Positions 2,609 to 57,130 of a stretch of DNA of 64,000 nt are shown piece by piece. How positions within the stretch are numbered: the first letter of the stretch is position 1; each line of letters opens with the position of its first letter. Source of the DNA: Candidatus Nanopelagicales bacterium. Its GTDB lineage: Bacteria > Actinomycetota > Actinomycetes > S36-B12. Made by a program: the position numbers and the translations under genes. The stretch spans positions 1 to 64,000 of the forward strand of contig JAPKAV010000003.1 of NCBI GenBank assembly GCA_028825115.1. Direction: 5' to 3'. The notes beneath the pieces were generated by a model, which ran no database searches, was not told the origin of the DNA, and saw only the letters and a list, made by a program, of their open reading frames with translations.

Positions 2609-2614
2609 TGACGT

Positions 2615-25380: not shown

Positions 25381-27264
25381 GTGTGCGGAATATTTGGAGT
25401 CATTCAACCCTCGGGTGTGACGGACTCGCTGGCAGATACGACAAATCACATCGGTGAATTTCTTTTACATCGCGGTCCTGACGGTTCCGGTTACATCAAG
25501 GGACCCGCAGCCTACTTGGCCATGCATCGGCTCAGCATCATGGACGTTCAAGGCGGTGGACAGCCATTCTGGAGCGAGAACCACCAGATTGGCGTTCTGG
25601 GCAACGGAGAGATTTACAACGCTTCAGAGCTGCGTGCTGGGCTCCTGGCGGCAGGTCACAGCTTCACCAGTACCTCTGACATGGAAGTCGTCCCTCACCT
25701 GATTGAAGCTCACGGGTTGGACGGTATTTCACGCCTCCGGGGAATGTTCGCTCTCGTTGTTTCGGACAAAGAAATGAATGCTGTCCACTTAATCCGGGAT
25801 CGTATGGGTGAAAAACCAATTATTTACTATAGGGACGGCAATGCCACCTTTTTTGCCAGTGAGCAATCAGCGCTGATCAAGTCAAAAGTCGTGCCGTCCG
25901 AGATTGATCCAGGATTTCTCTCAAATTACCTTTTGCACGGATTTGTTCCAGAACCACATTCGCTGGTGACGGGTGTTCACAAGGTCCCTGCCGGACACAT
26001 TCTCAGTATTTCCTTGACCGACGGCTCCCACACCCTAAAGCAGTATTGGGACCCCATGGAATTTGTCGGGTCAAAACCATTGAACACAAAAGACCTGCGG
26101 GAAGTAATTGAAGAATCCATTGAAGTCTCGTGCACGAGCGACCGTCCGGTGGGGATATCCCTCTCCGGAGGTCTTGACTCCTCTTTGGTCGCGGCACTCG
26201 CAACCACTCACCGGACAGAATTGCACGCCTTCACAGTAGGTTATGAAGCTAATGGTTTCGATGAAGCAGCCCAAGCAAATGAATTCGCCTCGAAGCTTGG
26301 CATCCCCTGTCACACCCGGTACTTGGACACCCGAGAGGTGGCGCATTCTTTCTCAGACATCTGCAGTTGGCGAGACGAACCGATCGCCGATATTGCCGGT
26401 CCCAGCATCGCAGCGGTCGCAAAGATGGCTGAGGAAGAACATGTACCCGTTCTGCTCACCGGTCTCGGTGGCGACGAACTCTTCTGGGGATACAGCTGGG
26501 TCAATAACCTGGCTATTTCGACGCGGCGCTATCTAGGGCAGCAGGGATCACGGTCCCTCAAGGATTTCTACTCACCGCCACCTCGGGGCAAACAAGGCCT
26601 ATTCGACTGGGGATTAAATTGGGGTGGAATTCGCAGTGAGGTTGCCAGGACTCGCTTCATGAAAAACTGGGCGACACACACCGAGGTTCCAATACCTCTC
26701 TACGAGTTTCAATACGGCTACCGATCGATCAATCAACAAATTCAAGCTATTTGCGGAAAAGTCCCCTCACCTGAATTTCTCATGCCACCGGATCCTGATC
26801 TTGTCGACGCTTTTTTTACCAACGCACAACTTGTCGGCTACCTTCGAGTGAACGGACTCACCCAAGTGGACCGACTTTCCATGCATTACTCGATTGAAAG
26901 TCGTGTTCCCTTAATTGACCACAAATTGGTCGAATACGTTATGAGTGCAAGAGTCGGGTCCAGTTACTCGCAAGAACCTCAGAAGATGTCTCTAAGGGAA
27001 GTCGCCAAACAAATCCTCCCGCCTGAAGTTATGAATCGACCCAAACGTGGTTTCACCCCTCCCGTACGGACATGGCTGCGAGAGATCTGGGGCATGAATC
27101 ACGATGCCCTCAATGCTGATGCACTTTCACAAATCCCAGACATCAACATTCACGCAATTCGAACCACAATGGCTAACCCAATAAACAAAACGGGCCAAGT
27201 GAACCAAATGGCGCTGCGATTGCTAACCCTGGAACTCTGGGCAAGGTCGCTAGCAAGTCAGTGA
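25381..27264 (+). CDS. asnB: Glutamine-dependent asparagine synthase-like amidotransferase
   Basis: A 627-residue two-domain enzyme. GTG 25381 is fixed as the start because the next codon is the catalytic Cys2 (CGIFGV). The glutaminase domain spans ~2-200 (HRGPDGSG, LGNGEIYN), and the synthetase domain has the PP-loop SLSGGLDSSLVAAL near 260. Length is normal. In surface-glycan loci such AsnB-like proteins often amidate uronic acid residues rather than make free asparagine, and that is my preferred reading given the neighbours. It is followed by degraded sequence. The 216-bp region upstream holds no gene. Confidence 0.88.
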   Translation: MCGIFGVIQPSGVTDSLADTTNHIGEFLLHRGPDGSGYIKGPAAYLAMHRLSIMDVQGGGQPFWSENHQIGVLGNGEIYNASELRAGLLAAGHSFTSTSDMEVVPHLIEAHGLDGISRLRGMFALVVSDKEMNAVHLIRDRMGEKPIIYYRDGNATFFASEQSALIKSKVVPSEIDPGFLSNYLLHGFVPEPHSLVTGVHKVPAGHILSISLTDGSHTLKQYWDPMEFVGSKPLNTKDLREVIEESIEVSCTSDRPVGISLSGGLDSSLVAALATTHRTELHAFTVGYEANGFDEAAQANEFASKLGIPCHTRYLDTREVAHSFSDICSWRDEPIADIAGPSIAAVAKMAEEEHVPVLLTGLGGDELFWGYSWVNNLAISTRRYLGQQGSRSLKDFYSPPPRGKQGLFDWGLNWGGIRSEVARTRFMKNWATHTEVPIPLYEFQYGYRSINQQIQAICGKVPSPEFLMPPDPDLVDAFFTNAQLVGYLRVNGLTQVDRLSMHYSIESRVPLIDHKLVEYVMSARVGSSYSQEPQKMSLREVAKQILPPEVMNRPKRGFTPPVRTWLREIWGMNHDALNADALSQIPDINIHAIRTTMANPINKTGQVNQMALRLLTLELWARSLASQ

Positions 27265-27743: not shown

Positions 27744-28290
27744 TCAGGCCTTACGATCGACTCGGAATCCCCTCTCACGGTAAATGCGTTGCACTTTTTT
27801 ACGATTCACGACAGAGCCATCGCCGCGTAGGTCCGACCGGGGGCGCCGGCGACCCTTACGAGTGTTGCGTGGCCCATGTGCTGACAAGTCGAGATGCGTG
27901 CGCAGCCAGCGGTCAGGATCAGTTGGTGTTTCATGACTGAGCAGACCGTGCTGGGTGGATCTGAGGGGCCCAACCACTATGCGTGCGAATCGCTCTAATC
28001 CCTCAAAATTTTCCTGTGGCAGCAAAACAGCTCGTCTTTTGGCCGATGGACACATAATTTTTTCGCGATCTTCCCAAGCATCATTTTGTCAAGATCAGAC
28101 TCAGCGAGGAAGCGTTCAAGTTTGCTGTTTTCGGTCCGGAGATCTGCGAGCCCCCCGTGTCACCAACGTCCATGTCTTCGTAGTGTTGCCGTCATTTGCA
28201 ATACGCAGGAGAAGCAATATGAACCGTCTCGGGTGTCGTTGGGTTTTCATGTGTATGGACATCATCGGTGTTTTGGAAAGCAAGGCACCC
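27744..28290 (-). mobile_element. Degenerate IS3-family element on minus strand
   Basis: Reading leftwards, an OrfA end (DLRTENSKL-like, then AESDLDKMMLGKIAKKL after frame repair) at ~28250-28040 is followed by OrfB residues from 28055: KRRAVLLPQENFEG, PLRSTQHG, PTDPDRWLRTHL, GRRRPRSDLRG and NRKKVQRIYRERGF. It stops before the integrase core. It is the same type of element as 16571-17177 but carries the helix-turn-helix portion that copy lacks. No terminal repeats were identified. It marks the left border of the acyl-modification module. Confidence 0.72.
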
Positions 28291-28380
28291 ACCGAAGGTT
28301 CAAATATCGAGATGTCGGCAGTTTCCTTCATGTTGAGCGAACGTCAAAACGCTGTCTAGAAACGGGCTTATTCTACGGTT

Positions 28381-29310
28381 TCATTGCGGAAAATCATTGG
28401 TGTCGAAGCGCGCAATTTCGAGCCGCTCTCCCGGGGAGACGTCCGCGGCTCCGGCTTGATCGGTGAAGGCTGCTTGGCAGCCAAGGGACGTTGCAAGGTC
28501 CAATGTGGTTTGGTTGTAATCTCCATATGGGTAAGCCAATGACCAACCGTGGCTCGGGTCCGCTCCAACAATCTCAAGCATTTCTATGGAACGATGAAGT
28601 TCGTGCTCTTGGTCTTTGGGCGCTAATTTACCAAGAAATTCATGGCTGTCTGCGTGGGACCCAATGTGCATGCCATTGGCTGTCATTAGGCGCATTTGGG
28701 ATTCGTTCATGTACAGCTCTTCTACGAACGCTTTTTCGTCGATGCTTACAAACTCCCGAAAAAGATTTTCACAGATCGCTGTCCTTAACGCTCTTGGGAG
28801 ATCACGTTGGAGCAAGCGTTTGATCGTGACTGTTTCGGGAGAGTCGCGCTTCCCACTGCCGGCTGCTTCAAGCGACGCTCGCGCATGACTTGACCCTAGA
28901 TGGTCATTGATGTGTAGTTGTAGTCTTTGGAGGACGTCTTCATGGTTTTTCGCCGCGGCGAGTATGAAGTGGATTCTGTGTACATCGAGGAGTTTTTTAT
29001 CGAGTACGGGAAGGGATGGGGGATAGAAGCAGCCTTGGATACCGAAATCATGAAGAACAGGAAAGACGCTGTGAAAGTGATCGATGAACCCGTCGTCGAA
29101 GGTTAAAACCACAGCTTGCCGTTCGCAGGTTGTGCTGCCGTCAATTACGGCTAGTAAGTCTTTCATCCCGAGGATTTCAAAATTCTTGCAAAAGTAATTG
29201 ATCTGGCGCTGGAACTCTTGATACTCGAGTGCTTTAATGTCTGGATAGCGTGACAGGCTCAAAGGCCGGACGTAGTGATACATGATTATGTTGACGGGTG
29301 AATTGGTCAC
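28381..29310 (-). CDS. Polysaccharide deacetylase (NodB-homology)
   Basis: About 310 residues from GTG 29310; an ATG-like start at 29385 is open but overlaps the GNAT gene by 62 bp. The NodB domain is visible: MYHYVRP at its entry, TFDDGF (metal and catalytic Asp) near residue 73, and SHADSHEFLG as the His-containing second motif near 215. YPYGDYNQTT follows as the motif with the structural Arg/Tyr position. It removes N-acetyl groups from amino sugars. No signal peptide is evident, so it probably acts in the cytoplasm on a precursor. Its partner upstream is an acyltransferase, suggesting deacetylate-then-reacylate logic. Confidence 0.82.
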   Translation of the reverse strand: MTNSPVNIIMYHYVRPLSLSRYPDIKALEYQEFQRQINYFCKNFEILGMKDLLAVIDGSTTCERQAVVLTFDDGFIDHFHSVFPVLHDFGIQGCFYPPSLPVLDKKLLDVHRIHFILAAAKNHEDVLQRLQLHINDHLGSSHARASLEAAGSGKRDSPETVTIKRLLQRDLPRALRTAICENLFREFVSIDEKAFVEELYMNESQMRLMTANGMHIGSHADSHEFLGKLAPKDQEHELHRSIEMLEIVGADPSHGWSLAYPYGDYNQTTLDLATSLGCQAAFTDQAGAADVSPGERLEIARFDTNDFPQ

Positions 29311-29323
29311 ATGTGCAACTGTC

Positions 29324-30346
29324 TCATGAGTTTGGCCTGTCTTGATCGGTATCAGAAGGGTGAAGGTGAAGCTTTTGTAACTCACGTAGCGACGATTTTA
29401 CTGCGTAAGCCACATTTACAGTGCGTTTTTCGAAAGGGTCGAAGTAATTTGGCAGAACCAAATCGGTGTCAGTTCGGGTGCTGGTGAATCCATTTCTGAG
29501 CATTTCATTTGAATCCACACCAGTCATCACTAGGTCGAGGTACTCAGCGCCCCAGTCTTTGATGAACTCACTCAGAACACTCGCAGACTGTGGTAAGAGA
29601 CTCACATCCCCACCGACATCAACTACCCTGACGAGGAATGAACCCTTAACTTTTACCTCTCTCAAGACCAAGAGCAATTCAGGATCCTCACCCCTACCCA
29701 GCACTATCATAAAATAAAGAAACGACGGATGTCGTTCAAAACGCTCTCGGTAATAAGCGACCGATTTTTCTGGGGTATTTGCACGGAGCATCGCTTCCAG
29801 TTTTAGTAGCAATGACTCCTCGAGATCAAGGGATCGTCCAATTACTTTCATTGGGGTAGCCGCCGTCTTATTCTGATTAACATTCTGCCCTGTTATCTGG
29901 GATACCTCAAGGTTGGGGTGAAAAATCGCGAAATGTTCCATAACACCCGTTGAGAAACGAAGAGCACGGTAGATGGGCACAACCATGTCACTCAGACCAA
30001 TACCGAACGTAGTGGTGGGCTTAAAATCTGCGACAAGTTGATTCAAAAGCATTACGCCTGTCCCACCTCCTGCCTCTTTGATCACCTTCCAAACGGCTAG
30101 CGCAATCGTGTTTTCTTTAAGTGACTCATCAAAGCGCCGAAAAGGAATAAAGCCCAGCAAGCCCACAATTTCAGCAGATTCCACAGCGACAATAAAGTTT
30201 AGGGTTTCTTCCTTTTTGTTTAGGTGCTGCCACATCAAGAGTTCTGGGCGCCTTACAAATACATGATCCTGACGCCAATTCTGCTCAATAAAAGAGGTGA
30301 TCTGATTCAACTCAGAAGCACGGGCTATCCGTAATGTTGCGGCCAT
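29324..30346 (-). CDS. GNAT-type N-acyltransferase
   Basis: A 340-residue protein. Its first ~150 residues are GNAT-like: RIARASELNQITSFIEQNW, then FIVAVESAEIVGLLGFIPF, then the pantetheine-binding EAGGGTGVMLLNQL near 91-104 and GLSDMVVPIYRALRF near 120. The C-terminal half is unassigned and may be a second GNAT-like lobe. The donor may be acyl-CoA or acyl-ACP. ATG 30346 is preceded by a strong AAGGGGGG ribosome site and a CATAAT box. It heads the operon with the deacetylase and is divergent from the KAS-III gene, so I infer N-acylation of a deacetylated amino sugar. Confidence 0.7.
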   Translation of the reverse strand: MAATLRIARASELNQITSFIEQNWRQDHVFVRRPELLMWQHLNKKEETLNFIVAVESAEIVGLLGFIPFRRFDESLKENTIALAVWKVIKEAGGGTGVMLLNQLVADFKPTTTFGIGLSDMVVPIYRALRFSTGVMEHFAIFHPNLEVSQITGQNVNQNKTAATPMKVIGRSLDLEESLLLKLEAMLRANTPEKSVAYYRERFERHPSFLYFMIVLGRGEDPELLLVLREVKVKGSFLVRVVDVGGDVSLLPQSASVLSEFIKDWGAEYLDLVMTGVDSNEMLRNGFTSTRTDTDLVLPNYFDPFEKRTVNVAYAVKSSLRELQKLHLHPSDTDQDRPNS

Positions 30347-30639
30347 TAACCCCCCTTAATTCCTATTATGATGACCAAGCAAGCTAGGTTCGCCCGGGGA
30401 ATAGTCAGAAAACTGAAGTTCCCAACAGATACGTAAGGTTAAACCCACTACGGATAAGGCTTCGGCGGGACCCCTTGCAGCGAGTCCGAGTAATGTGACC
30501 TCAAACAACCGTCACTCTGTGGGGGCCACATCATGAAGACCGCCGACCGACTAATGGGGTCCTTCGATTGGATTTTTAGGGTTAGTTATTATTCTTGCTC
30601 ATGAAGCGGTAAGTACTCATTCATACTGAGAGGATAATC
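30347..30639. promoter_or_regulatory. Divergent promoter region of the acyl-modification module
   Basis: A 293-bp stretch without a gene between GNAT (left) and KAS-III (right). Leftwards, CATAAT at ~30365-30370 precedes AAGGGGGG and ATG 30346. Rightwards, CATACT near 30622 and GAGAGGA precede ATG 30640. The two arms of the module are therefore likely switched together. No obvious dyad operator was found. Confidence 0.45.
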
Positions 30640-31656
30640 ATGCAAGTAGACGGCGTGGGCTTGAAAGCAATCTCCGTAGCCTTACCAAACTCCGTCGTGA
30701 CAAATACAGAGATGAACGATATTCATCCCGAATGGCGGATGGACTTAGTGGAGAGTAAAACGGGAGTTAGCCAGCGGCACATTGCCGGTCAGGGTGAAAC
30801 AGCGCTGGACTTGGCTGAAACTGCTTGTCGCAAGCTTTTAAGCGCCAACGAGGGTCTCTCGGAGCGCATTGATGGAATCATCTTCTGCACTCAGACTCCT
30901 GACTACATAATGCCTCCCAATGCTTGTTTGCTCCACGATAAGTTGGAACTGGGCGATGGAGTGATGGCTTTCGACACGAGTCTGGCCTGCTCAGGTTATG
31001 TTTACAGCCTCGTAATTGCGCAGGGCCTGATTGCTACGGGCATGTGCACCAATATTCTTGTTGTGACCGCGGATACATATTCCAAACTGATCAATCCGGG
31101 AGACAGGTCCGCCCAATGTCTTTTCGGCGATGGCGCAGCTGCGACTTGGATGGCCTCATGCCATGACGCTGGTGTTTTGGACGCTATATGTGAAACCTCT
31201 GGTTCCGATTATCGCAATTTCTTCATCCCTGCAGGTGGTATGCGTCAGCCATCCACGCTGAAAAATCGCGACGAGGTGGTAGACGCAAGTGGCAGCAGAC
31301 GAAGCCCCAATGATATCCACATGAACGGTATGGGAGTCCTTTCCTTCGCGAATACCAAAGTCCCCCACCAGATACGGCGGCTCCTTGAGCGCAATGCCTT
31401 GTCTGTCGACGACATCGACTTAGTAGTCTTTCATCAAGCGAGCAAGCTTGCATTGGACTCACTGACACGACTTCTAGGATTTTCGGAGCGTCAAGCCTTC
31501 CGTAACTTAGTCACCGTAGGCAACACGGTGTCCGCATCCATCCCAATCGCATTATCGCAGGCGATCCTGGAGGGTCGGGCAAGGCCTGGGGATCTTGTCC
31601 TCTTATGTGGCTTCGGCGTGGGGCTTTCGTGGGCGACCATGTTGGTCCGATTGTAG
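30640..31656 (+). CDS. 3-oxoacyl-ACP synthase III-like enzyme (KAS III)
   Basis: A 338-residue thiolase-fold enzyme with the full KAS-III triad: C117 in TSLACSGYVY, H265 in VVFHQASKL and N295 in VGNTVSASIP. The FabH-type glycine-rich end (LLCGFGVGLSW) is present. It condenses an acyl starter with malonyl-ACP. As a stand-alone copy next to a private acyl carrier protein, ligase and SDR inside a glycan island, it is unlikely to be the housekeeping FabH. I infer it builds a short 3-oxoacyl group for glycan decoration. Ribosome site GAGAGGA is well placed. Confidence 0.87.
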   Translation: MQVDGVGLKAISVALPNSVVTNTEMNDIHPEWRMDLVESKTGVSQRHIAGQGETALDLAETACRKLLSANEGLSERIDGIIFCTQTPDYIMPPNACLLHDKLELGDGVMAFDTSLACSGYVYSLVIAQGLIATGMCTNILVVTADTYSKLINPGDRSAQCLFGDGAAATWMASCHDAGVLDAICETSGSDYRNFFIPAGGMRQPSTLKNRDEVVDASGSRRSPNDIHMNGMGVLSFANTKVPHQIRRLLERNALSVDDIDLVVFHQASKLALDSLTRLLGFSERQAFRNLVTVGNTVSASIPIALSQAILEGRARPGDLVLLCGFGVGLSWATMLVRL

Positions 31657-32054
31657 CCAACGAAGACCAATCGATTTGGAGAATCGCGTTCCATAAACAA
31701 GATCGATTTTGACGCAACTGCGGCCCACTCAGCTCAGCGATGCGGGCGCCAAATGTTCGCGACATTTTAGGCGAGAGTAGTCGCACTACTGAGCGACCGA
31801 GCCAAAATGGTTGAAGAGCCGCTTGCCACAATTCACACAGACAACGGTCACTCGCCGGGATCCTAGCAGGACCGCTACTTGGAAGCCAAGGACAGGCGTA
31901 TGCCGCAAAAAATCGCTCATCCCTGGGAGTTTGAAAATGCTAATGGGTCGCTGCCTCGGGGGTGTAAAGCCCCTGCACGGTTGTGATACCACGATTAGGT
32001 AAGGTCATGCTTCAAGGAAACCTTTGTGGCACGAGTGAGAATAGGATACGAGGA
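31657..32054. other. Gap with no assignable gene
   Basis: About 400 bp between KAS III and the acyl carrier protein. The minus-strand frame 31786-31992 has a CVNCGKRLFNH zinc-finger-like stretch that could be the start of a transposase, but there is too little to call it. I see no terminator and no promoter that I would defend. The gap is unusual because the rest of the operon is tightly packed. Confidence 0.3.
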
Positions 32055-32348
32055 ATGAATATTGAAGAAGCGCAGTCTTTAGTTTTTGACGCGATTCGTG
32101 CCGTAAATGGAGAGAGAGGAGTGGACGAACAGATCCTTCTCTTGCCGACTACGGCTCTATTTGGTCACGACTCGACTGTCGACTCGCTGAGTCTCGTATC
32201 TCTCGTCGTGGATGTCGAGACAGCGTTGAGTGAAAAGCTGGGTCGCCAGATTTCGCTCACAGATGAGGTGGCAATGAGCCGAGAGGTTATGCCACTCGCC
32301 ACCGTGGGCACGCTCACAGAGTTCATCATTGAACTCGCTCAGCACTAA
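32055..32348 (+). CDS. Acyl carrier protein
   Basis: A 97-residue carrier protein from ATG 32055 (MNIEEAQSLVFDAI), preceded by ACGAGGA; the longer open frame from 31983 is rejected on length. The phosphopantetheine site is S44 in TVDSLSLVSLVVDVE, the DSL box of the family, and helix II continues VETALSEKLG. It would hold the growing acyl chain made by the KAS-III enzyme and loaded by the ligase downstream. It is a dedicated carrier since no other fatty-acid genes surround it. Note the acidic, short form typical of pathway-specific ACPs. Confidence 0.85.
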   Translation: MNIEEAQSLVFDAIRAVNGERGVDEQILLLPTTALFGHDSTVDSLSLVSLVVDVETALSEKLGRQISLTDEVAMSREVMPLATVGTLTEFIIELAQH

Positions 32349-32429
32349 CAAAAGCCAGCGCGGTGAGGATGAATCCTCGTACTGATTGGCCAGGTCTCTG
32401 CGGTTCTAGCCTAACGATAGAGGGGGGAT

Positions 32430-33134
32430 ATGCCAAACGACCAGATTGAATCTGCGGTGCCAATTCAGATTGGTGAGGGCGTCTGGAGAATTCGCAACCG
32501 AGGTCATGCTTCAAACACTTACCTTTGCCGGCTTGAGGATGGCGAGTCTGGTTTTATTATCGATCCTGGGATTGATGAGGAAGCTGTGCTGGCAGGTATC
32601 CACAGCCTAGGATTTAGACTTGTGGGAACTTTCTGTACCCACGGGCACTTTGATCATGTTGGGTCGGCGGCTGCAATCCGGGAAAATTTTGGTGCGCCAA
32701 TCCACCTTCATGAGGCCGACTTAGACTTGTTGAAGTCGGCAAATTTTCATATGATGCTTGCTAAAGTTCCCGGCAGGATCTCAACACCCAGGGTGGACGC
32801 AGCTGCATCGGCTGGTTCGCGCTACTTGACAGGCAACGATTTAATTGAGTTCATCCACACGCCCGGACACACACTGGGAAGTTGCTGCATCCGATTCGGT
32901 CGGTACATCTTCACTGGAGACACTCTCTATCGAGACTCCCTGGGGCTCGTCAACTTCCCCGGGGAGGATCCTGCGACCCTGCGCGAATCCCTCGGAATCC
33001 TTTGGGACACCCTCCCGCCCTGGTCTGTCATTTGCCCGGGACATGGAGGAGCAGGTACCCTAGAAAGTATCAAAGAGAATAACGTGGAGCTTCGCAAATT
33101 CCTATTTGGCGATGCACAGAAGAAGGAAATCTGA
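32430..33134 (+). CDS. Metallo-beta-lactamase-fold hydrolase
   Basis: A 234-residue glyoxalase-II-like hydrolase with the dinuclear metal motif H71-x-H73-x-D75-H76 (THGHFDHVGS), third His in HTPGHTLGS near 144, bridging Asp in FTGDTLYRDS near 163 and last His in CPGHGGAG near 203. Placed between a carrier protein and an acyl ligase, it most likely hydrolyses acyl thioesters, either releasing the product or clearing mis-primed carrier; lactone or nucleotide substrates cannot be excluded. AGAGGGGGG precedes the ATG. Its stop overlaps the next start by one base. Confidence 0.82.
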   Translation: MPNDQIESAVPIQIGEGVWRIRNRGHASNTYLCRLEDGESGFIIDPGIDEEAVLAGIHSLGFRLVGTFCTHGHFDHVGSAAAIRENFGAPIHLHEADLDLLKSANFHMMLAKVPGRISTPRVDAAASAGSRYLTGNDLIEFIHTPGHTLGSCCIRFGRYIFTGDTLYRDSLGLVNFPGEDPATLRESLGILWDTLPPWSVICPGHGGAGTLESIKENNVELRKFLFGDAQKKEI

Positions 33135-34504
33135 TGACCTACTCATGTGACTTTCTTCTTGAGCGATTCGCCTCAGTTCCGGATCAAGTTGCCTTTATTG
33201 ACGATGACGAGGAGTTTACCTTCGCGTGGGTACTAGATCGTGTACCGGAGTACGAGGCACTGTTGAGCTATGCGGGTGTCAAGCGTGGTGATGTTGTAGT
33301 TGTGCTTGCGGACTATTCCCCACACATTTTCTGCTTTATTTTGGCGGCTGTGAGTAAAGGTATTATTTTTGCACCGATGACCAGCGACTCCGTTGTGGAT
33401 TTGACAACGATTCTGGAGCTATCCGAGGCAGATCTGTACATTGAGTTCGCTAAGGATCCAGAGGATATTCGAATAGTTCCACATACGCCACAGAATAAGA
33501 ATTCCCTGCTCGGTGAGTTTAGACCTCGAGACCAGCCAGGTCTTCTCCTATTCTCTTCAGGATCAACCGGAGACCCGAAAGGGATCCTGCTCGACTTTGG
33601 CTCTGTTCTTGAAAAGTTTAGGATCGCGCGTCCCCGCGTCACGGCTATCTCGTTTCTTATGCTTGATCACTTCGGAGGAATTAACACACTTCTCCACATT
33701 TTGTCCAACCTTGGGACAGTCGTCACGGTGCGCGAGAGATCGGTTCGCGCCGTCTGCCAAGCAATCCAACGCCACCGTGTGGAACTACTACCAACTACGC
33801 CGTCTTTCCTGAACATTCTGGTGCATTCCGATGTGGGGAGCCATTACGATTTGAGTTGTCTGCGCATAATTTCCTACGGAACAGAAGTTATGCCACAGGT
33901 GACGCTGGATCGACTCGCACTCCAATTTCCCGATGTAAAATTGCAGCAAACATACGGTTTATCTGAAGTGGGGGTCCTCAGAACAAAATCACGCCCTGAC
34001 GGATCGCTGTGGCTAAAGATTGGGGGCGAAGGGTTCATGACTCAAGTTCGTGAACATGTTCTGTGGGTAAAATCCGATTACGCGATGGTCGGTTACCTCA
34101 ACGCACCTTCTCCGTTTGATGAGGACGGCTGGTTCAATACTCAAGATCGAGTGGAGGTTGACGGCGACTACATCCGTATTCTCGGGCGAACCACAGACCT
34201 TATTAACGTTGGTGGTCAAAAGGTCTACCCTGCTGAGGTCGAAGATGTCATCATCGGACTGGACAACATTGAAGACGTTCGGGTGTTTGGTGAAAAAAAC
34301 GCTCTCGTTGGGAATATCGTGGTAGCCCAAGTGGTGCTCAGAGAGCCAGAGAATCCGGCTGATCTCAAACCACGGATCCGTAAGGCGTGCCTCGAATCGC
34401 TGGCTGATTTCAAAGTGCCAGCCAAGGTGACAGAACTGCATTCCGGGTTATACTCCTACCGTCACAAGAAGATTCGAACCAGAGATGGATTTATTACGCC
34501 ATGA
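33134..34504 (+). CDS. AMP-forming acyl-CoA/acyl-ACP ligase
   Basis: A 456-residue adenylate-forming enzyme. The P-loop-like LLLFSSGSTGDPKGI is near 135, QTYGLSEVGVLRTKS near 275 is the adenine-binding A5 motif, WFNTQDRVEVDGDYIRILGRTTDLINVGGQKVYP near 333-366 covers A7-A8, and RHKKIRTRDG at the end holds the A10 lysine. It activates a carboxylic acid as the adenylate and passes it to a thiol. The neighbouring ACP is the obvious acceptor. It is shorter than classical acyl-CoA synthetases (~550) in the N-domain. Coupled to both neighbours by 1-4 bp overlaps. Confidence 0.86.
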   Translation: MTYSCDFLLERFASVPDQVAFIDDDEEFTFAWVLDRVPEYEALLSYAGVKRGDVVVVLADYSPHIFCFILAAVSKGIIFAPMTSDSVVDLTTILELSEADLYIEFAKDPEDIRIVPHTPQNKNSLLGEFRPRDQPGLLLFSSGSTGDPKGILLDFGSVLEKFRIARPRVTAISFLMLDHFGGINTLLHILSNLGTVVTVRERSVRAVCQAIQRHRVELLPTTPSFLNILVHSDVGSHYDLSCLRIISYGTEVMPQVTLDRLALQFPDVKLQQTYGLSEVGVLRTKSRPDGSLWLKIGGEGFMTQVREHVLWVKSDYAMVGYLNAPSPFDEDGWFNTQDRVEVDGDYIRILGRTTDLINVGGQKVYPAEVEDVIIGLDNIEDVRVFGEKNALVGNIVVAQVVLREPENPADLKPRIRKACLESLADFKVPAKVTELHSGLYSYRHKKIRTRDGFITP

Positions 34505-35217
34505 GCCACGACTCATTCCCACAGGGTGGTGTTGACTCACTCATTGTCTACGGACCAATGAGTCACGCTTTGACTGATTTTCTTGACAAGGTCCCGCCAG
34601 AGATTTCTATGATCCGAATTCACGGCAAGACCCCGCCACCGGCTAGGGAATTTACTTGGGACATAAATAATGTAGAGGATCTTCCTGATTGCCTGTCACA
34701 TTTGCAATCGTCTCGGCCAAAACCAAGGATTGCCTTTCTTGGAGCTGGTTTCATGAACCAAAACCGCTTGCTGATTCAAGAAACTACAGAATCGGTCAAT
34801 CTCCAGATCGAAGCGAATGTGTTGAATTATGTTCGGATGACACATACCTTGCTGCCACACATGGTGCGTTCCCGGTTCGGCCGCTTCGTGTACCTGTCAT
34901 CTTTTCGAACAAAAGCAGTGGTGCGAGGCACCAGCATCTATTCTGCTTCAAAGGCCTTCGGGGAGGCTTTTTTTAGATCCGTGGGAATCGAGAACGGTCG
35001 TTTCGGGGTGACGAGTGCAAGCATACGAATGGGATATTTCGCGGGAGGCTTGCTCAGTGACGTGAGCGTTGAGAGACTCGCGGCACTTAAGAGCCAAACA
35101 TCGCTGGGGCGCCTTGGAACTCCCGAGGACCTATCAATGGCGATTTCCTATGCGCTGAATAGCGAGTTCACAAATGGTGGTGTCATAGAACTCGAAGGAG
35201 GCCTGTCATCTCTGTAG
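34501..35217 (+). CDS. Short-chain dehydrogenase/reductase, FabG-like with altered cofactor loop
   Basis: A 238-residue SDR. The catalytic set S133/S134, Y147 and K151 (VYLSSF, then YSASK) and the C-terminal GGVIELEGG are intact. The N-terminal TGxxxGxG cofactor loop is replaced by YGPMSHAL near 17-24, and the NAG motif reads GAGFMNQ. It may use its cofactor differently or have lost activity. By position it should reduce the 3-oxoacyl group made by the KAS-III enzyme to 3-hydroxyacyl. It closes the operon, overlapping the ligase by 4 bp. IS remnants begin 70 bp downstream. Confidence 0.78.
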   Translation: MSHDSFPQGGVDSLIVYGPMSHALTDFLDKVPPEISMIRIHGKTPPPAREFTWDINNVEDLPDCLSHLQSSRPKPRIAFLGAGFMNQNRLLIQETTESVNLQIEANVLNYVRMTHTLLPHMVRSRFGRFVYLSSFRTKAVVRGTSIYSASKAFGEAFFRSVGIENGRFGVTSASIRMGYFAGGLLSDVSVERLAALKSQTSLGRLGTPEDLSMAISYALNSEFTNGGVIELEGGLSSL

Positions 35218-35289
35218 GCCTTTGATTTAGCATTCAAACCGAGAAGGAGTTGGAGGACCACGCTGATCGGTCCACGTAAGTTGAGAGTT

Positions 35290-35415
35290 TTTGAATCTTG
35301 AACCACTAGCAACTCTGAGCGTACCTGTTCGGAGTGAATATCCCGGACGTGAGTGCGGGTGGTATTTGTTGTGGTCCTCCTTCCAGTGAGTAATGACCTC
35401 GTGGGCTTGGGTCTG
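35290..35415 (-). mobile_element. IS3-type transposase C-terminal scrap
   Basis: The minus strand reads QAHEVITHWKEDHNKYHPHSRPGYSL, split here only by description: the W-x-x-x-x-N and HPHSRPGY pattern is the C-terminus of IS407-like OrfB proteins. Nothing upstream in frame belongs to the same protein. It is one of four transposase scraps stacked between the acyl module and the second polysaccharide locus. Confidence 0.5.
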
Positions 35416-35473
35416 CCTTCGGTTTGGCTGACATCACGAACCGCCCTAAGTTGGTTGCCTTTTCTCGTTGATT

Positions 35474-35760
35474 TTAGGCAGGTTGTTTTTGCAGGCTGGC
35501 TCCGCATTCGACGGGTGATATGCAACCAATGTTGGAGTGTTTGCGTTGTCGCTTATAGAAGACTCCAGCGAGCTCGAATATCGCATTTGCTGACTCGATG
35601 CGTATTTTCCATTTCCTCGGGTTCGACATTTCAACCTGCATCGAAAACCAGAAAGATTCCACCATGGCAATGTCATCGGCAGCACCGACTGACCCGAATG
35701 ACGGCATGAGGCCGGCTGAGGGGAATTTTTCCGCGAAAGCTAATAAGCAAATTGTCTGAA
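35474..35760 (-). mobile_element. IS3-family OrfB C-terminal third
   Basis: From ~35757 leftwards one frame reads AFAEKFPSAGLMPSFGSVG, then ADDIAMVESFW, RKWKIRIESANAIFEL and KRQRKHSNIGCISPVE. This is the end of the integrase core, with the final catalytic Glu in VESFW and the conserved tail of actinobacterial IS3 transposases. The upstream part is gone; an IS30 piece follows instead. Immobile relic of a different IS3 subtype from the ones at 16.6 and 27.8 kb. Confidence 0.75.
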
Positions 35761-35761
35761 T

Positions 35762-35900
35762 TCAACCGGTTGTTGCAACGCTGGCTTATTGGATTAACGG
35801 CAGTTGATCGGTGAATACTGCTGCTGGGGTCCTCCACCCGAATGTTTTTCTGGATCGACTATGGAAGTGCATGTGCGGATGCTTCGAGGTCTGAGGTGTT
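35762..35900 (-). mobile_element. IS30-family transposase C-terminus and end
   Basis: Leftwards on the minus strand: SRKTFGWRTPAAVFTDQL, the RPRKTLGWxTP signature that closes IS30 transposases. After the stop codon comes a TTGCAACAACCGGTTGAA-like end that resembles the right terminus of these elements (35762-35780). Only this end survives. It abuts the IS3 tail at 35760, so one element probably inserted into or recombined with another. Confidence 0.6.
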
Positions 35901-36102
35901 CCATCGCGTTAGCTTAGATCCTCTGGGACATTAATGCTATCAGTAGACCTTTCTTTCACGAGAGTGATGTTCTGCAATTTCAATTACCCACAGATCGTCA
36001 GACCGATCACGGCTAAAACGACGATTCACAAGATCATGATTGGTAGCCTCCCGCGAGTTTCGAGATGCTTTGACTGGTCATAAAAGGTCAACAATTGCAA
36101 CG

Positions 36103-36470
36103 TTATGCTCGAAGGGTCCCCCGAGAAGCGCACTCACGAAGACCCCGCGACCGTTTCTGAGTCCGAGAGGCGCCCGGCGCTAGCCAGACCTCCCGCGAGG
36201 AGCTACGCGAACACTTCGAATGATGTCCGTTAACCAGGGGGAGTGCCCGGTTTCGGCGCATCTTCGCGTGCGTCAATGGTCGCAAACTGTACTCGTCATA
36301 TTCCCGGGGAAAGCCTCCAAGAACACGAGCGCATTGCTTTAACCGATAACCATCAGCCACCAGGACATCCATTGATCTGCTTGAAGCCTTTTCGGTGACG
36401 GACCTGGCTCCCAAAATGTCAGGGGCCCTGCGAAGAATCTCGACTCGTTTTCCAAATCACGTCCAAGTCA
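36103..36470 (-). mobile_element. IS3-family OrfA/OrfB junction relic
   Basis: The minus strand frame runs EILRRAPDILGARSV (the usual OrfA end), then DVLVADGYRLKQCARVLG and YDEYSLRPLTHAKMRRNRAL, the OrfB N-terminus of IS2/IS51-type elements in which a second protein begins near a recoded overlap. Later residues are frame-shifted. It may be the missing 5' part of the element whose tail is at 35474-35760, separated by the IS30 scrap; the distance would fit an inserted and deleted element. Confidence 0.5.
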
Positions 36471-38369: not shown

Positions 38370-38966
38370 CTAATGGGTGCCGTTAAAACGCGGAACAGTA
38401 GCTGAGTCTTTGGAAGATACCCCTTGTCTTGTGATGACTGTTTTGATTGTCCAGAAAATAATTGCCCAGTCAAGTTTGGAATCGTGGTTGTCCACGTACC
38501 AAATGTCCAAATCGAACTTTTCTTCCCAAGACAAATCATTGCGCCCTTTTACTTGAGCTAACCCGGTCAACCCAGGCCGGATCTCGTGTCTGCGAGCCTG
38601 AACTGGTGAGTATCGGGGCAGGTATTCCATCAATAGTGGTCTGGGACCCACCAAGCTCATGTCTGCGCGAACCACATTCCACAATTCTGGAAGTTCATCC
38701 AGACTTGTCGAGCGCAAAAAGGTTCCGAAGCGTGTCAGGCGCTCAGCGTCCGGCAATAAATCACCGTATTGATCACATCGGTCGGTCATGGTTCGGAATT
38801 TCACGAGCCCAAAGGGCTTACCACCGAGCCCCGGCCGAATTTGCCGGAAGAGTACCGGCGAACCCAGAAACACGCGGACAAGTAGCCCAAGAAGTCCAAT
38901 AACTGGCGACAGTAGAACCACTCCACATCCAGAAATCACGAAATCTGCGAGACGCTTCATGCTCAC
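38370..38966 (-). CDS. pglC: PglC-like phosphosugar transferase
   Basis: A 198-residue monotopic initiating transferase. One re-entrant hydrophobic helix (RLADFVISGCGVVLLSPVIG) at the N-terminus is followed by the catalytic core: PVLFRQIRPGLGGKPF, KFRTMTD, SLDELPELWNV with the catalytic Asp-Glu near 92, and SLVGPRPLLMEYLPRY. Size and order equal PglC, which moves di-N-acetylbacillosamine-1-phosphate from UDP to undecaprenyl phosphate. The matching PglE-like aminotransferase overlaps it by 4 bp and PglD/PglF-like genes are close by. The symbol reflects this context; close relatives use other sugars. Confidence 0.85.
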   Translation of the reverse strand: MSMKRLADFVISGCGVVLLSPVIGLLGLLVRVFLGSPVLFRQIRPGLGGKPFGLVKFRTMTDRCDQYGDLLPDAERLTRFGTFLRSTSLDELPELWNVVRADMSLVGPRPLLMEYLPRYSPVQARRHEIRPGLTGLAQVKGRNDLSWEEKFDLDIWYVDNHDSKLDWAIIFWTIKTVITRQGVSSKDSATVPRFNGTH

Positions 38967-40099
38967 GGGCCAAGGGTCTTCGAGATCACCGAACAGACCT
39001 CTTCAACATCGAAGTCAGTGATCCTTGGACCAGAAGGCAGACACAATCCCGAAGAGTAGACGGAGTCGGCCTTGCCGTTGAGGAAAGTGCGAGCACCTCG
39101 GAAAACGGGCTGGTTGTGCATCGGCTTCCAAATTGGACGGGACTCAATGTTTCTTTCTTCCAAGGACAATCGAACGCGTGTGGGCGCATCTGGATATAAT
39201 CCAAGATCAAAAGTCACCACAGATAACCAAGCATTTGAACGACCCCACCGTGGGTCCTCTTGTACCAGGATACCCTCTAACTGGGCAAGACCCTCCCGAT
39301 ACAACTCACGAAGCTCACGGCGGCGAGCTACCGTACGGTCAATTCTCTCCAATTGTGACCTGCCCAAGGCCGCCAAAATATTACTCAACCGGTAATTGTA
39401 ACCAATCTCTTCATGTTCATACCAAGGAAAATCCTCGCGCGACTGTGTAGCCCAAAAACGGACTCTGGACGCAAACTCGCTATCATTCGTCAATAACATG
39501 CCACCCCCCGAAGTGGTCAGGATCTTATTTCCGTTAAAGGATAGGGCTCCGCCCACTCCAAAGCCCCCCAATTTTCGGCCACCAAAATCACCGCCAAGGC
39601 CCTCAGCAGCATCCTCAAAAACCGGGACACCGAACTCTGAGAACAAAGGCATCAACGCTCCGTAATTGGCAGGGGAACCATATAAGTCGACGGGAAGTGC
39701 GGCCCCAACCCGAATACCATCACCGTTCAAGGCCTCCAGGGCCAGTCGTGTTTGATCTGGATCCATGTTCCACGCGTCGTCAACGTCAACAAATACCGGC
39801 TCAGCTCCCAGGTAGGTCACTGCAAAAGCGGTTGCACCGAAGGTCAGTGTGGGAACTAAAACTTGATCGCCCGGACCCACGCCTAAATATTTTAAGGCCA
39901 AATGGAGCGTTGCCGTGCCGGAGCTCAACCCAACCGCCTCAGATACCCCTACATAGAGCGCAATTTGCGTCTCAAAGGCAGACAACTCCGGCCCCGACGG
40001 CGCAACCCAACCCGAAAGCAAGGATTCCTGGACCCGGTGGATGTCTTCAGGAGTAGCCACGGGAGCAGATAGGTAACGTCTTGCTCCAATGTCATTCAT
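38963..40099 (-). CDS. pglE: PglE-like DegT aminotransferase
   Basis: A PLP-dependent sugar aminotransferase of ~378 residues. SSGTATLHLAL (phosphate cup) is near 60, FEDAAEGLGG holds the PLP-pyridine Asp, and the Schiff-base Lys is in FNGNKILTTSGGGML near 190. It adds an amino group at C4 of a UDP-4-keto-6-deoxy-GlcNAc. The first ATG is 40105, but a TAGGCT box lies exactly 6 nt before the second ATG (40099), so I prefer that start. The neighbours supply the steps before (PglF-like), after (PglD-like) and the loading enzyme (PglC-like). Confidence 0.86.
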   Translation of the reverse strand: MNDIGARRYLSAPVATPEDIHRVQESLLSGWVAPSGPELSAFETQIALYVGVSEAVGLSSGTATLHLALKYLGVGPGDQVLVPTLTFGATAFAVTYLGAEPVFVDVDDAWNMDPDQTRLALEALNGDGIRVGAALPVDLYGSPANYGALMPLFSEFGVPVFEDAAEGLGGDFGGRKLGGFGVGGALSFNGNKILTTSGGGMLLTNDSEFASRVRFWATQSREDFPWYEHEEIGYNYRLSNILAALGRSQLERIDRTVARRRELRELYREGLAQLEGILVQEDPRWGRSNAWLSVVTFDLGLYPDAPTRVRLSLEERNIESRPIWKPMHNQPVFRGARTFLNGKADSVYSSGLCLPSGPRITDFDVEEVCSVISKTLGP

Positions 40100-40105
40100 G
40101 GACAT

Positions 40106-40111
40106 AGCCTA
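40106..40111 (-). promoter_or_regulatory. -10 box TAGGCT, leaderless promoter
   Basis: On the minus strand, TAGGCT, then 6 nt (ATGTCC), then ATG 40099. The first ATG (40105) would lie upstream of the transcript start, which argues for the second. Confidence 0.5.
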
Positions 40112-40275
40112 TTCTCTATTCATTTCGCGGCAGACCACCTAATAGAGTGTTCTTATGGCGCGACCAAATTTCCACTTGAAGACCTCTCATTTTGGCAGCC
40201 CCAAATCCGGATCTTTTAAACGCCTAGCTCTAATGGGCCAAAGGGAACCAGTGATCCTCTCGAAGAGGGAGTCTC

Positions 40276-40923
40276 GTGAATAAGGGACTCTACGTGTGGG
40301 GTACCGGGGGGCACGCGAAGAGCTTGGCCGAGATTGCCATCGCATCGGGCTTCCAGATTCAGGCCTTTATTTCTCCAAACTCGGATTTCCAAACTTTTTT
40401 AGGTTTCACTGCCCGACCAGAACTCCCTGACGGTCTTACACCCGGGAATGCGGTCTTGGCGATCGCAATCGGAGATAATTTCACGCGCCAAAAAGTGTGG
40501 TTCGAACTCAACAAAACTTATCCCCTTTTAATGTTTCCTCCCTTAATTCATCCGACAGCATCGATTGCAAAAGATTCCGATATTGGACAGGGCTCCACTG
40601 TTCACCAAAACTCAGTGGTTGGAACTTCCTCCCAAGTCGGAATTTTTTGCACGCTCAACACAGCTTCAAGTATCGAACATGACTGCAATGTGGGCGACTT
40701 TGCGTCACTGGGCCCAGGCGCCCGAACCGGCGGTAACGTGACGATAGGTGAGCGAGCTGTGTTAGCCATTGGCTCCACGGCACGTCATGGTGTCCAAATT
40801 GGCGACGATTCCGTGCTGGGCGCCGCTTCATACGCACACGAATCAATTCCGCCTCTTACGATTGCGGTAGGCGCACCCGCATCATTTCTCAAAGACAGGA
40901 AAGCCCATGATCCATACTTATAG
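40276..40923 (+). CDS. pglD: PglD/NeuD-like sugar N-acyltransferase
   Basis: A 215-residue protein with an N-terminal nucleotide-sugar fold (LYVWGTGGHAKSLAEIA) and a C-terminal left-handed beta helix of hexapeptide repeats from ~97 (IHPTASIAKDSDIGQGSTV). The catalytic His follows ASSIEHDCNVGD near 135. PglD transfers acetyl from acetyl-CoA to the C4 amine of UDP-4-amino sugars. The GTG start follows AGAGGGAG. Whether this copy uses acetyl or an acyl made by the module at 30-35 kb cannot be seen. It runs with the PglF-like gene 36 bp downstream. Confidence 0.83.
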   Translation: MNKGLYVWGTGGHAKSLAEIAIASGFQIQAFISPNSDFQTFLGFTARPELPDGLTPGNAVLAIAIGDNFTRQKVWFELNKTYPLLMFPPLIHPTASIAKDSDIGQGSTVHQNSVVGTSSQVGIFCTLNTASSIEHDCNVGDFASLGPGARTGGNVTIGERAVLAIGSTARHGVQIGDDSVLGAASYAHESIPPLTIAVGAPASFLKDRKAHDPYL

Positions 40924-40947
40924 TTTTAGGAACATGTTGAACTGGCG

Positions 40948-40953
40948 TAGGAT
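40948..40953 (+). promoter_or_regulatory. -10 box TAGGAT, leaderless promoter
   Basis: TAGGAT lies 6 nt before GTG 40960, giving the PglF-like gene its own start site within the operon. Confidence 0.5.
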
Positions 40954-40959
40954 AGTTCA

Positions 40960-42714
40960 GTGACCCAGAGACCATGGTTCCAAAAACGATTGGTCCAAGT
41001 GGCTTGGGACGGCCTCTCGTGGATTGTGGCAGTCCCGATGGCTCTGCTATTCCGATATGATTTCAATGTCAGCAACTCGCTCCTGCTGATTGCTTTTGGC
41101 AGTGGTGTACTCGCAGCAGTACTCCATATCGCAGCCGGTTCTGCATTCCATCTGTACCAAGGTCGATATGTTGTGGGTTCTTTTGATGAAGTTCTCGGTG
41201 TTGTTGTTACGTGCCTATTTGTGGGAGCTCTAGGAACATTAACGCTGTTACTCATTCCCGAGAGCGAGTTACCACGCTCCACGTTTCTTATTGCTACTGG
41301 AGTCGCAGCGGCAAGCATGCTCGGTGCTCGATTTGTTTTGCGGGGTGTGCGCCAGCAACGATTGCTCGGCCGTGAAGGGAAGAAGACCCTTATCTATGGA
41401 GCGGGAGATGCTGGATCACAAGTCGTCATTCTGATGCTCAACGACCGTCACAATGAATACCAGCCCATTGGCTTTATTGATGATAATCCGAGGAAGCATC
41501 ACCTACGAAGATCAGGTATCAAAGTGCTTGGTAATTCGTCCCAACTTGAAGAAATCTGTTCTCAGACTGAAGCGGTAGTTTTACTTATTGCCATCGCGGG
41601 GATTCAAGCAGCGGAACTTCTTGAACTTGATCAACGTATGAGACCCCTTGGAGTTTCGGTAACAATCATCCCGACCGCATCAGAAATTGCTGGCGGGGCG
41701 GTCAAGTTAGGTGACATTTCCGATGTTACCGAAGAAGACCTCATGGGGAGGCGCCCCATCAAAACAGATGAGGCTGAAATCACCGCATTCATCCGGGGTA
41801 AGAGGATCCTTGTCACGGGTGCAGGAGGTTCCATCGGTTCTGAATTAGTACGGCAGATTTCGCGCTATCGTCCAAGCGCCCTGTTTCTCTTAGATCGAGA
41901 TGAGTCCGCCCTTCACCGAGTCCAGCTCACCCTTGATGGATCTGGCCACCTAATGTCCCCCAACTTGATCCTCGCCGATATCAGAGACACAGTGAGGATC
42001 GACGAAATCTTCGCAGAGACCCAGCCTGAAATTGTTTTTCACTCCGCTGCCCTCAAACATCTTCCCCTCCTCGAACGCCACCCCGAAGAAGCCTTCAAAA
42101 CCAACGTCCGCGGGACCGCAAACATGCTACAAGCGTCCACGGATCACAGGGTCACTCACTTCGTCAACATTTCAACCGACAAAGCCGCAGACCCCACGAG
42201 CATCCTCGGCAAATCGAAATTGCTCACTGAACAACTCACTGCCGGAGTACCTGAAGATTCTAAGCGATCTTTCGTGTCAGTTCGGTTTGGGAATGTCCTC
42301 GGATCAAGAGGATCAGTCATAGAAACATTTCGATTCCAAATTGAAAAAGGTGGGCCAGTAACTGTCACAGATGAAACAGTTACTCGATTCTTCATGACAA
42401 TCCGCGAAGCAGTCCACCTCGTTCTTCAGGCCGCAGTAATTGGTTCGCATGGCGAAACCCTCATACTTGACATGGGATCACCCATCAAGATAGTTGATCT
42501 TGCTCAACACATGATCAGTAGATCGGGCCGTAACATCTCCGTCGAATTTACGGGTCTTCGACCTGGTGAAAAGGCTCATGAGATCTTGGTGTCGCCAACA
42601 GAAGAAACTAAGCAAACCTCGCACGAGCTAATTACCAGTTCACGAGTCGACCCGTTTCCGCTTCCCGGTCCATCTAATATCCGCGAAACAAATTGGCTAA
42701 AAGTGCAAAGTTAG
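40960..42714 (+). CDS. pglF: PglF-like UDP-GlcNAc 4,6-dehydratase, membrane-bound
   Basis: A 584-residue protein of the WbpM/CapD type. Four membrane helices lie in residues 15-115, followed by a first Rossmann domain (KTLIYGAGDAGSQV near 143) and the catalytic SDR domain (ILVTGAGGSIGSELVRQ near 280, NISTDKAADPTSILGKSK near 405). The large forms of this family carry Met at the usual SDR Tyr; this copy shows ILGKSK there, so the YxxxK Tyr is likewise absent. It would convert UDP-GlcNAc to the 4-keto-6-deoxy form, first step of bacillosamine-type sugars. Start GTG 40960 set by the leaderless box. Confidence 0.88.
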   Translation: MTQRPWFQKRLVQVAWDGLSWIVAVPMALLFRYDFNVSNSLLLIAFGSGVLAAVLHIAAGSAFHLYQGRYVVGSFDEVLGVVVTCLFVGALGTLTLLLIPESELPRSTFLIATGVAAASMLGARFVLRGVRQQRLLGREGKKTLIYGAGDAGSQVVILMLNDRHNEYQPIGFIDDNPRKHHLRRSGIKVLGNSSQLEEICSQTEAVVLLIAIAGIQAAELLELDQRMRPLGVSVTIIPTASEIAGGAVKLGDISDVTEEDLMGRRPIKTDEAEITAFIRGKRILVTGAGGSIGSELVRQISRYRPSALFLLDRDESALHRVQLTLDGSGHLMSPNLILADIRDTVRIDEIFAETQPEIVFHSAALKHLPLLERHPEEAFKTNVRGTANMLQASTDHRVTHFVNISTDKAADPTSILGKSKLLTEQLTAGVPEDSKRSFVSVRFGNVLGSRGSVIETFRFQIEKGGPVTVTDETVTRFFMTIREAVHLVLQAAVIGSHGETLILDMGSPIKIVDLAQHMISRSGRNISVEFTGLRPGEKAHEILVSPTEETKQTSHELITSSRVDPFPLPGPSNIRETNWLKVQS

Positions 42715-42835
42715 TTCTGATCCCCTCGCGTCGCTCGTTCCGATCCGTACCTTCACAGAACCACACAATAGTTACCAGCGTGCGCCGCAGACGTAAAGGC
42801 ATTTGGGCGTTAGTGCGCTAGATACTCAGATCCTT

Positions 42836-42841
42836 TAGACT
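42836..42841 (+). promoter_or_regulatory. -10 box TAGACT, leaderless promoter
   Basis: TAGACT is followed by 6 nt and GTG 42848. It is the same hexamer and spacing as at 8146. Confidence 0.6.
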
Positions 42842-42847
42842 CCAGAT

Positions 42848-45635: not shown

Positions 45636-45639
45636 TATT

Positions 45640-46542: not shown

Positions 46543-46549
46543 AGCCCCG

Positions 46550-46555
46550 AGGCTA
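46550..46555 (-). promoter_or_regulatory. -10 box TAGCCT, leaderless promoter (7-nt spacing)
   Basis: TAGCCT on the minus strand ends 7 nt before ATG 46542, one base more than the other leaderless genes. It supports the internal ATG over the open frame from 46590. Confidence 0.4.
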
Positions 46556-46560
46556 CCCTG

Positions 46561-54033: not shown

Positions 54034-54207
54034 TTGGGGGCCTCCGTCGCCCGTCGGTCGTTCCCGGGAATAAGGCAGAATCTGCGTCTGCGAGCAGCAT
54101 CTGATTCCCCACTCCTGTGTTTATCGCGAAAGTTCGTCTTGTCATTTAAATGCGGCGTCCCCGCCTAATTGCCCTGCAAAGGGTCGATTTCCGTGTAGGA
54201 GAACTGG

Positions 54208-54213
54208 TATCGT
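54208..54213 (+). promoter_or_regulatory. -10 box TATCGT, leaderless promoter
   Basis: TATCGT then 6 nt then ATG 54220. Hexamer and spacing are identical to those at 2603, and the preceding bases (GAACTGG against GAACCGG) are nearly the same. Confidence 0.6.
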
Positions 54214-54219
54214 GTACTC

Positions 54220-57128: not shown

Positions 57129-57130
57129 GA

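Follow-up and report, generated by a model that had tools for sequence, protein, structure and literature searches.

What could a polysaccharide deacetylase, an acyltransferase and five genes of acyl-carrier metabolism be doing side by side in a bacterial glycan-synthesis locus? The question is raised by a module of seven open reading frames (ORFs) in a 64-kb stretch of contig C140 (JAPKAV010000003.1), from a Candidatus Nanopelagicales assembly of 2.18 Mb (77.5% complete, 3.4% contamination). This whole stretch is called the window below. According to Pfam and NCBIfam scans of the window, the locus also holds glycosyltransferases, a Wzy_C gene, sugar-phosphate transferases and a pgl-like block. 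An origin in Actinomycetota is supported by three WhiB genes, a marker that in a set of 14 control genomes was matched by Corynebacterium only. The deacetylase and the acyltransferase are encoded on the minus strand, divergently from the five other genes, which run on the plus strand. Our reading, to which we give a probability of about 0.48, is that the module builds a custom N-acyl group and installs it on a surface-glycan amino sugar, by way of two linked sub-pathways, one preparing the acyl group and the other freeing and re-acylating the amine.

Gene content and active sites of the module

28381..29310, minus strand: polysaccharide deacetylase of the CE4/NodB fold, probably cytoplasmic (PF01522, E=5e-18; the ORF opens at 29385, homologues start at about 29310 or 29283)
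29324..30346, minus strand: GNAT-family acyltransferase, partner of the deacetylase, with a C-terminal DxDxDRP motif (assigned by adjacency of homologues and GNAT Pfam matches in the family)
30640..31656, plus strand: beta-ketoacyl-acyl carrier protein synthase III (FabH/KAS-III; PF08541/PF08545), triad Cys117/His265/Asn295 intact
32055..32348 (true start about 32055), plus strand: dedicated acyl carrier protein (ACP), 97 residues from an internal ATG, Ser44 in TVDSLSL
32430..33134, plus strand: metallo-beta-lactamase (MBL)-fold hydrolase resembling glyoxalase II, a candidate editor of acyl thioesters (PF00753)
33134..34504, plus strand: AMP-forming ligase from the MupQ/TmlQ-like clade, a candidate for loading the ACP (PF00501/PF13193)
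34501..35217, plus strand: short-chain dehydrogenase/reductase (SDR), FabG/MupS-like, YxxxK kept, usual TGxxxGIG cofactor motif missing

These are the seven families that the original prediction had recognised from the letters alone, and the scans confirmed them, in the case of the GNAT via the matches of its family members. Direct reading also upheld the catalytic residues named for the KAS-III and the ACP, Ser44 being counted from the internal ATG at 32055. Junctions were said to be mostly overlaps of 1-4 bp, which holds for MBL and ligase (1 bp) and for ligase and SDR (4 bp), but KAS and ACP are 398 bp apart and ACP and MBL 81 bp. The 398-bp gap (31657-32054) is non-coding within an otherwise compact run; a gene remnant was considered there and rejected, as the gap matched no ORF of the related loci. 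On the other strand, a 62-bp overlap between deacetylase and GNAT hangs on the start codon, and becomes a short gap if the deacetylase starts at 29310 or 29283, as its homologues do.

The deacetylase keeps the motifs TFDD, GSHxxxH and YPYG, which are invariant or nearly so in a family alignment (37-42% identity). In the NCBIfam scan, it scored below cut-off with the PgaB, HfsH and PdaA/PdaB models, and matched no NodB and no PEP-CTERM deacetylase model. Its GNAT neighbour had no Pfam or NCBIfam match at 1e-3, the NodA and pepcterm_femAB models included. Relatives of this GNAT in two other loci (L107 and L125) match GNAT Pfam models, at 1e-5 to 1e-6 and over residues of about 21-135, and the C-terminal DxDxDRP motif is common to the family members. 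An AlphaFold2 model of the GNAT alone reached a predicted local distance difference test (pLDDT) score of 34 and was not used.

In the plus-strand run, the MBL hydrolase keeps its metal motif (HxHxDH and the later H, D and H), its closest solved structures being hydroxyacylglutathione hydrolase-like, and the core motifs of the ligase are intact on direct reading. Catalytic motifs are thus kept in the module except for the cofactor loop of the SDR, which reads YGPMSHAL at the TGxxxGIG position. The structure model of this protein is confident only after residue 45, the cofactor-loop region being of low confidence. Matches of the protein to solved structures begin only at residue 99 for MupS and at about residue 50 for FabG. 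Its nearest folds are FabG, with some halohydrin dehalogenases listed too, enzymes which do not bind NAD.

Recurrence of the two halves in other genomes

A scan with the ligase, at one genome per species, returned at least 549 relatives, and the best 80 loci (L024-L103) were analysed for neighbours. These 80 loci span many phyla and are often glycan loci. Near the ligase, an SDR was found in 78 of the 80, an ACP in 71 and an MBL in 19, and a KAS accompanies the MBL in all 19; in most of the 80 the minimal unit is ACP, SDR and ligase without KAS. This widespread cassette of ACP, SDR and MupQ-like ligase is apparently undescribed so far. Neighbours in the 19 KAS- and MBL-bearing loci include a DegT sugar aminotransferase within 9 kb (17/19), an FkbH-like protein (16/19), a QdtA-like isomerase (14/19) and a GNAT (11/19). 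Since 17 of these 19 loci carry a sugar aminotransferase, gene neighbourhood supports a tie between the cassette and amino-sugar acylation.

In the ligase tree, the window falls in a clade of 18 with support 100/100, in which every member has an MBL and a KAS. Contiguous copies of the five-gene core in other phyla show that the grouping is not a chance one. The closest orthologous sets among the loci compared are in Bacteroidota, contiguous in L051 and L096, and the betaproteobacterium L037 carries the same five genes; the window ACP is 45-56% identical to the cassette ACPs of loci L024-L037. Within Actinomycetota, the core is also present in Mycobacterium rhizamassiliense and Modestobacter, both in the 18-member clade, so that the cassette is not unique in the phylum. 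Matches to the ligase at E<=1e-60 came from one other genome among 396 sampled of the phylum, and the ligases of 146 order relatives are distant (28% in the top match, up to 34% over partial matches); with only about 4 kb each, the loci of these ligases were too short to serve as a control for neighbours. The KAS tree, in which a FabH outgroup was disregarded as a mistranslated frame, groups the window (99/99) with L096 and L051 of Bacteroidota, with the betaproteobacterial L037 and with two Deinococcus plasmids. As KAS and ligase group differently, the parts of the cassette have mixed histories.

Gene order varies. In L051 it is ACP-SDR-MBL-KAS-ligase (KAS 49% and ligase 44% identical to those of the window); a PglD-like gene immediately precedes the ACP, and a WbmS-like deacetylase immediately follows the ligase. 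In L096, a Sediminibacterium, the run reads deacetylase-ACP-SDR-MBL-KAS-ligase, and a GNAT-like gene follows two genes after the ligase. L096 was considered as a seven-gene orthologue, a case weakened by a deacetylase that is only distantly related and by a GNAT-like gene called by resemblance, with no Pfam match. Another deacetylase adjoining a cassette, in L092, was set aside, being only distantly related within the family and lacking a GNAT. The window at 53356-61231 and L096 at 851-5362 also have relatives in common, namely a HAD phosphatase (33%), a D-2-hydroxyacid dehydrogenase (38%) and a Gfo/Idh oxidoreductase (25%), and, judged by eye, each has a cytidylyltransferase close by; this hints at a joint acidic-sugar pathway. 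A further KAS relative, 41% identical, belongs to a vioA island on plasmid pBGF3 of Burkholderia glumae, where vioA, a KAS-III, an ACP, a second KAS-III, an SDR and a PglD-like acyltransferase lie beside flagellar genes. In this locus (L109, 11974-14349) the ACP is flanked by the two KAS-III genes, the second of which is not in the PLSDB gene table.

The deacetylase and the GNAT have no homologue among 97 order relatives. Farther away, close relatives of the deacetylase (37-42%) adjoin a GNAT relative in Escherichia albertii plasmids (L107), two Clostridia (L118, L119) and a gammaproteobacterium (L125), and a locus from another actinobacterial class (L115) has relatives of both on one contig. 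An exception to this pairing is Paracoccus L110, with a close deacetylase and no GNAT alongside. The pair in L107 (10934-12963) is carried on plasmids of about 62 kb, between apbC/metG-like and AAA ATPase genes and away from glycan loci. In L118 (7502-9530), from a Clostridia genome, only housekeeping genes surround the pair; being isolated, it must draw its substrate from elsewhere. The other Clostridia locus, L119, has an operon of deacetylase, GNAT, ACP, SDR, NeuB-like synthase and AMP-ligase, whose carrier genes are not orthologous to those of the window, so that this composition arose separately. In Subdoligranulum (L111), a GNAT homologue ends a run of FkbH, ACP, MaoC and SDR genes. More distant deacetylase relatives in Bacteroidota directly adjoin a formyltransferase gene (L128, 8452-10207; L129, 1147-2931), which hints at deacetylate-then-formylate pairs. 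Judged from such neighbours, the deacetylase family appears to work with N-acyl- or formyltransferases.

Each half of the module is therefore found again in distant bacteria. Co-occurrence of all seven genes elsewhere had been proposed as a check, and no second locus with the exact orthologous set was found. The original prediction knew of no described system with exactly this set in an actinomycetote; as the five-gene core also occurs in Actinomycetota, a module of this kind is not new to the phylum.

Proposed reactions and known parallels

In the first sub-pathway, the MupQ-like ligase would load a short carboxylic acid, either malonate or a hydroxy acid, onto the ACP, the KAS-III would form a short beta-ketoacyl-ACP, and the SDR would reduce it to 3-hydroxyacyl-ACP, while the MBL hydrolase would remove wrong thioesters. 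In the second, the cytoplasmic deacetylase would act on a sugar linked to a nucleotide or a lipid, stripping its N-acetyl group to leave a free amine, and the GNAT would re-acylate it from the acyl-ACP. These reactions are inferred, and so are the 3-hydroxyacyl chain, its acceptor and the joint action of the halves.

Three described systems bear on the product of the cassette. In the viosamine island of Pseudomonas syringae, the KAS-III VioS, an ACP, the 3-oxoacyl-ACP reductase VioR and the acyltransferase VioB give N-(3-hydroxybutyryl)viosamine, and deletion of vioR abolishes the modified sugar (PMC3927599). The window has the same combination of KAS-III, ACP and candidate reductase, probably likewise for amino-sugar N-acylation, but the island has no AMP-ligase, MBL or deacetylase, its amine is made by an aminotransferase, and its acyltransferase is not a GNAT. 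For the O-polysaccharide of Flavobacterium psychrophilum, a dedicated ACP, ketoacyl synthases and a reductase (wfpC-G) are proposed to make the R-group, a dihydroxyhexanoyl amide on a 4-amino sugar produced by PglF/PglE; there a PglD homologue transfers the acyl group, and the part of the account available to us reports no deacetylase, ligase or MBL (PMC6519341). Finally, MupQ, MupS and MacpD of mupirocin and thiomarinol synthesis make 3-hydroxypropionyl-ACP from malonyl-CoA (PMC10098928). Their ligase is of the same clade and comes with an SDR and an ACP (in the window the SDR adjoins the ligase and the ACP is two genes upstream), but they feed a polyketide, lack KAS-III, MBL, deacetylase and GNAT, and their SDR is only distantly related. 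On these parallels, the likeliest product of the cassette is a short hydroxyacyl-ACP, the exact acid being one of several. Vibrio cholerae O1, set beside the window by description only, likewise uses a dedicated gene set to make a short hydroxy acid (tetronate) that N-acylates the perosamine of a surface glycan, but with other enzymes and an aminotransferase-made amine (PMC3441752).

For the second half, the nearest parallel is the Wbp/Vim pathway of Porphyromonas and Tannerella, in which the CE4 deacetylase VimE and the N-acyltransferase-like VimA are proposed to replace an acetyl group by serine or glycine, an AsnB-type enzyme being involved too (PMC7468200). The deacetylase-GNAT pair fits such a "deacetylate, then re-acylate" step, although no ACP cassette takes part in the Vim case and the window GNAT does not match the related FemAB model. 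Nod-factor synthesis (NodB, NodA, NodE, NodF) has the same order of deacetylation, then N-acylation from a dedicated carrier. The Nod-like logic that had been suggested is plausible in this sense, with deacetylase and N-acyltransferase paired across phyla, but the module does not belong to the Nod systems: the window has no Nod family match, NodA and NodB included, its KAS is of type III and not NodE-type, no chitin-oligosaccharide synthase was recognised in it, and its deacetylase and NodB have only the CE4 superfamily (PF01522) in common. Acyl-swapping on an amino sugar, Nod-like in its working, is our best reading, at the probability given above.

That the halves act together is supported by their adjacency in the window, by the separate composition in L119, by the distant parallel in L096 and by members of the GNAT family in ACP operons. 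Several observations weigh against it. The pair occurs in L107 and L118 without ACP genes nearby, and no GNAT homologue was found in 32 cassette-bearing genomes. Deacetylase motifs lie near only 4 of the 80 ligases, in a regular-expression census that WbmS-like proteins escape. The ACP, SDR and ligase of L119 are non-orthologous, and the L096 deacetylase is a remote relative. In the window itself, the glycine-rich cofactor motif of the SDR is lost, the halves are divergently transcribed rather than forming a single operon, and a nearby PglD-like acyltransferase offers an alternative acceptor route. The proposal of an acyl group put on a deacetylated amino sugar thus keeps its two components, a cassette tied to amino-sugar acylation and a real deacetylase-GNAT pair, but these recur separately.

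Neighbouring genes and other explanations

25381..27264, plus strand: AsnB-type amidotransferase, possibly functionally linked (TIGR01536; TIGR03108 at E=3e-98, below cut-off)
27744..28055, minus strand: IS3-type transposase relic, OrfB N-terminal helix-turn-helix, left edge (HTH_21, E=3.7e-6, slightly below the curated cut-off)
35474..35707, minus strand: probable IS3 transposase C-terminal relic, short frame (similarity judged by eye)
about 35760..35906, no strand assigned: IS30-family relic, right edge (72% to annotated IS30 transposases)
38370..42714: pgl-like block of sugar-1-phosphate transferase (minus), DegT aminotransferase (38963-40105, minus), PglD-like acyltransferase (40276-40923, plus) and PglF-like dehydratase (plus)

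The insertion sequence (IS) relics claimed outside both ends of the module are indeed there. The left one has an inverted copy at 16606-16862 (76%). That the IS3 relics are one element split by the module was rejected, because both have minus-strand orientation and the N-terminal part has the smaller coordinates. Beyond the relics and the Wzy_C gene, the aminotransferase and the left-handed beta-helix (LbH) acyltransferase of the pgl-like block lie 3.7-5.7 kb from the module.

It could be that this block, and not the deacetylase-GNAT pair, receives the acyl group: in a viosamine- or bacillosamine-like route, the aminotransferase would make a free 4-amino sugar and the PglD-like enzyme would take the acyl from the ACP, deacetylase and GNAT being separate. 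The viosamine island (vioA/vioB/vioS/vioR/acp) works in this way, the PglD-like WfpG of F. psychrophilum is proposed to do so with the ACP WfpD, an aminotransferase accompanies most KAS- and MBL-bearing cassettes, and in L051 the PglD-like gene directly precedes the ACP. However, contig C92 (172000-191500) carries a copy of window 38370-48513 at 71-88% identity (76-88% for the block at 38370-42714), which may be a paralogue or come from a related strain in the bin, from which the acyl module is absent. Its PglD-like protein is 87% identical to that of the window, which is therefore probably not dependent on the cassette. This objection is weak if both loci are in one cell, where one ACP could serve both, but IS relics and the Wzy_C gene also separate the module from the block, and we consider this route somewhat unlikely. 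A Vim-like exchange, in which deacetylase and GNAT swap the N-acetyl group for an aminoacyl one with the help of AsnB while the ACP cassette serves another sugar, would account for the AsnB gene beside the pair both in the window and in L125; in the Vim pathway, a related step that forms a uronamide relies on an enzyme of the AsnB type (PMC7468200). It seems quite improbable, given the lack of any NCBIfam match of the GNAT, including pepcterm_femAB, the family that VimA resembles, the lack of a PEP-CTERM deacetylase match, and the GNAT relatives in the ACP operons of L111 and L119.

We give equally little credence to a cassette whose product is not of the 3-hydroxybutyryl type, in which ligase, SDR and ACP would, like MupQ, MupS and MacpD (PMC10098928), make a 3-hydroxypropionyl- or other hydroxyacyl-ACP from malonyl-CoA, to be extended or moved by the KAS. 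The ligase is indeed 36% identical, over 444 residues, to that of the thiomarinol plasmid pTML1, and 43-45% to the ligases of ligase-SDR-ACP-polyketide synthase runs, and the minimal unit of most of the best 80 loci lacks a KAS; but the SDR of the window reaches no more than 25-29% identity with the SDRs of those runs, over its C-terminal half, and the KAS-III holds the decarboxylative Cys-His-Asn triad. Lastly, the module might be an island that came in by horizontal transfer and is now decaying, with part of its function lost, as the relics on both sides, the degenerate SDR cofactor loop, the unexplained KAS-ACP gap and order relatives devoid of deacetylase, GNAT and close ligase homologues could indicate. 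With seven full-length frames, and the catalytic residues of deacetylase, KAS, ACP, MBL and ligase all kept, this is very improbable.

Antigenicity, charge and phage sensitivity of bacterial surface glycans depend on their N-acyl decorations, and to our knowledge few routes alter the acyl group once the sugar is made. The module may be a self-contained N-acyl exchange outside rhizobia, with a Nod-like working assembled from unrelated parts, and the deacetylase-GNAT pair a general, undescribed acyl-swapping unit with varied suppliers, ACP cassettes in some cases and formyltransferases in distant relatives, a generalisation that we hold tentatively. Should acyl swapping by the pair prove true, its presence next to glycan genes would predict non-acetyl amides, and the widespread cassette of ACP, SDR and MupQ-like ligase would predict which acid is attached.

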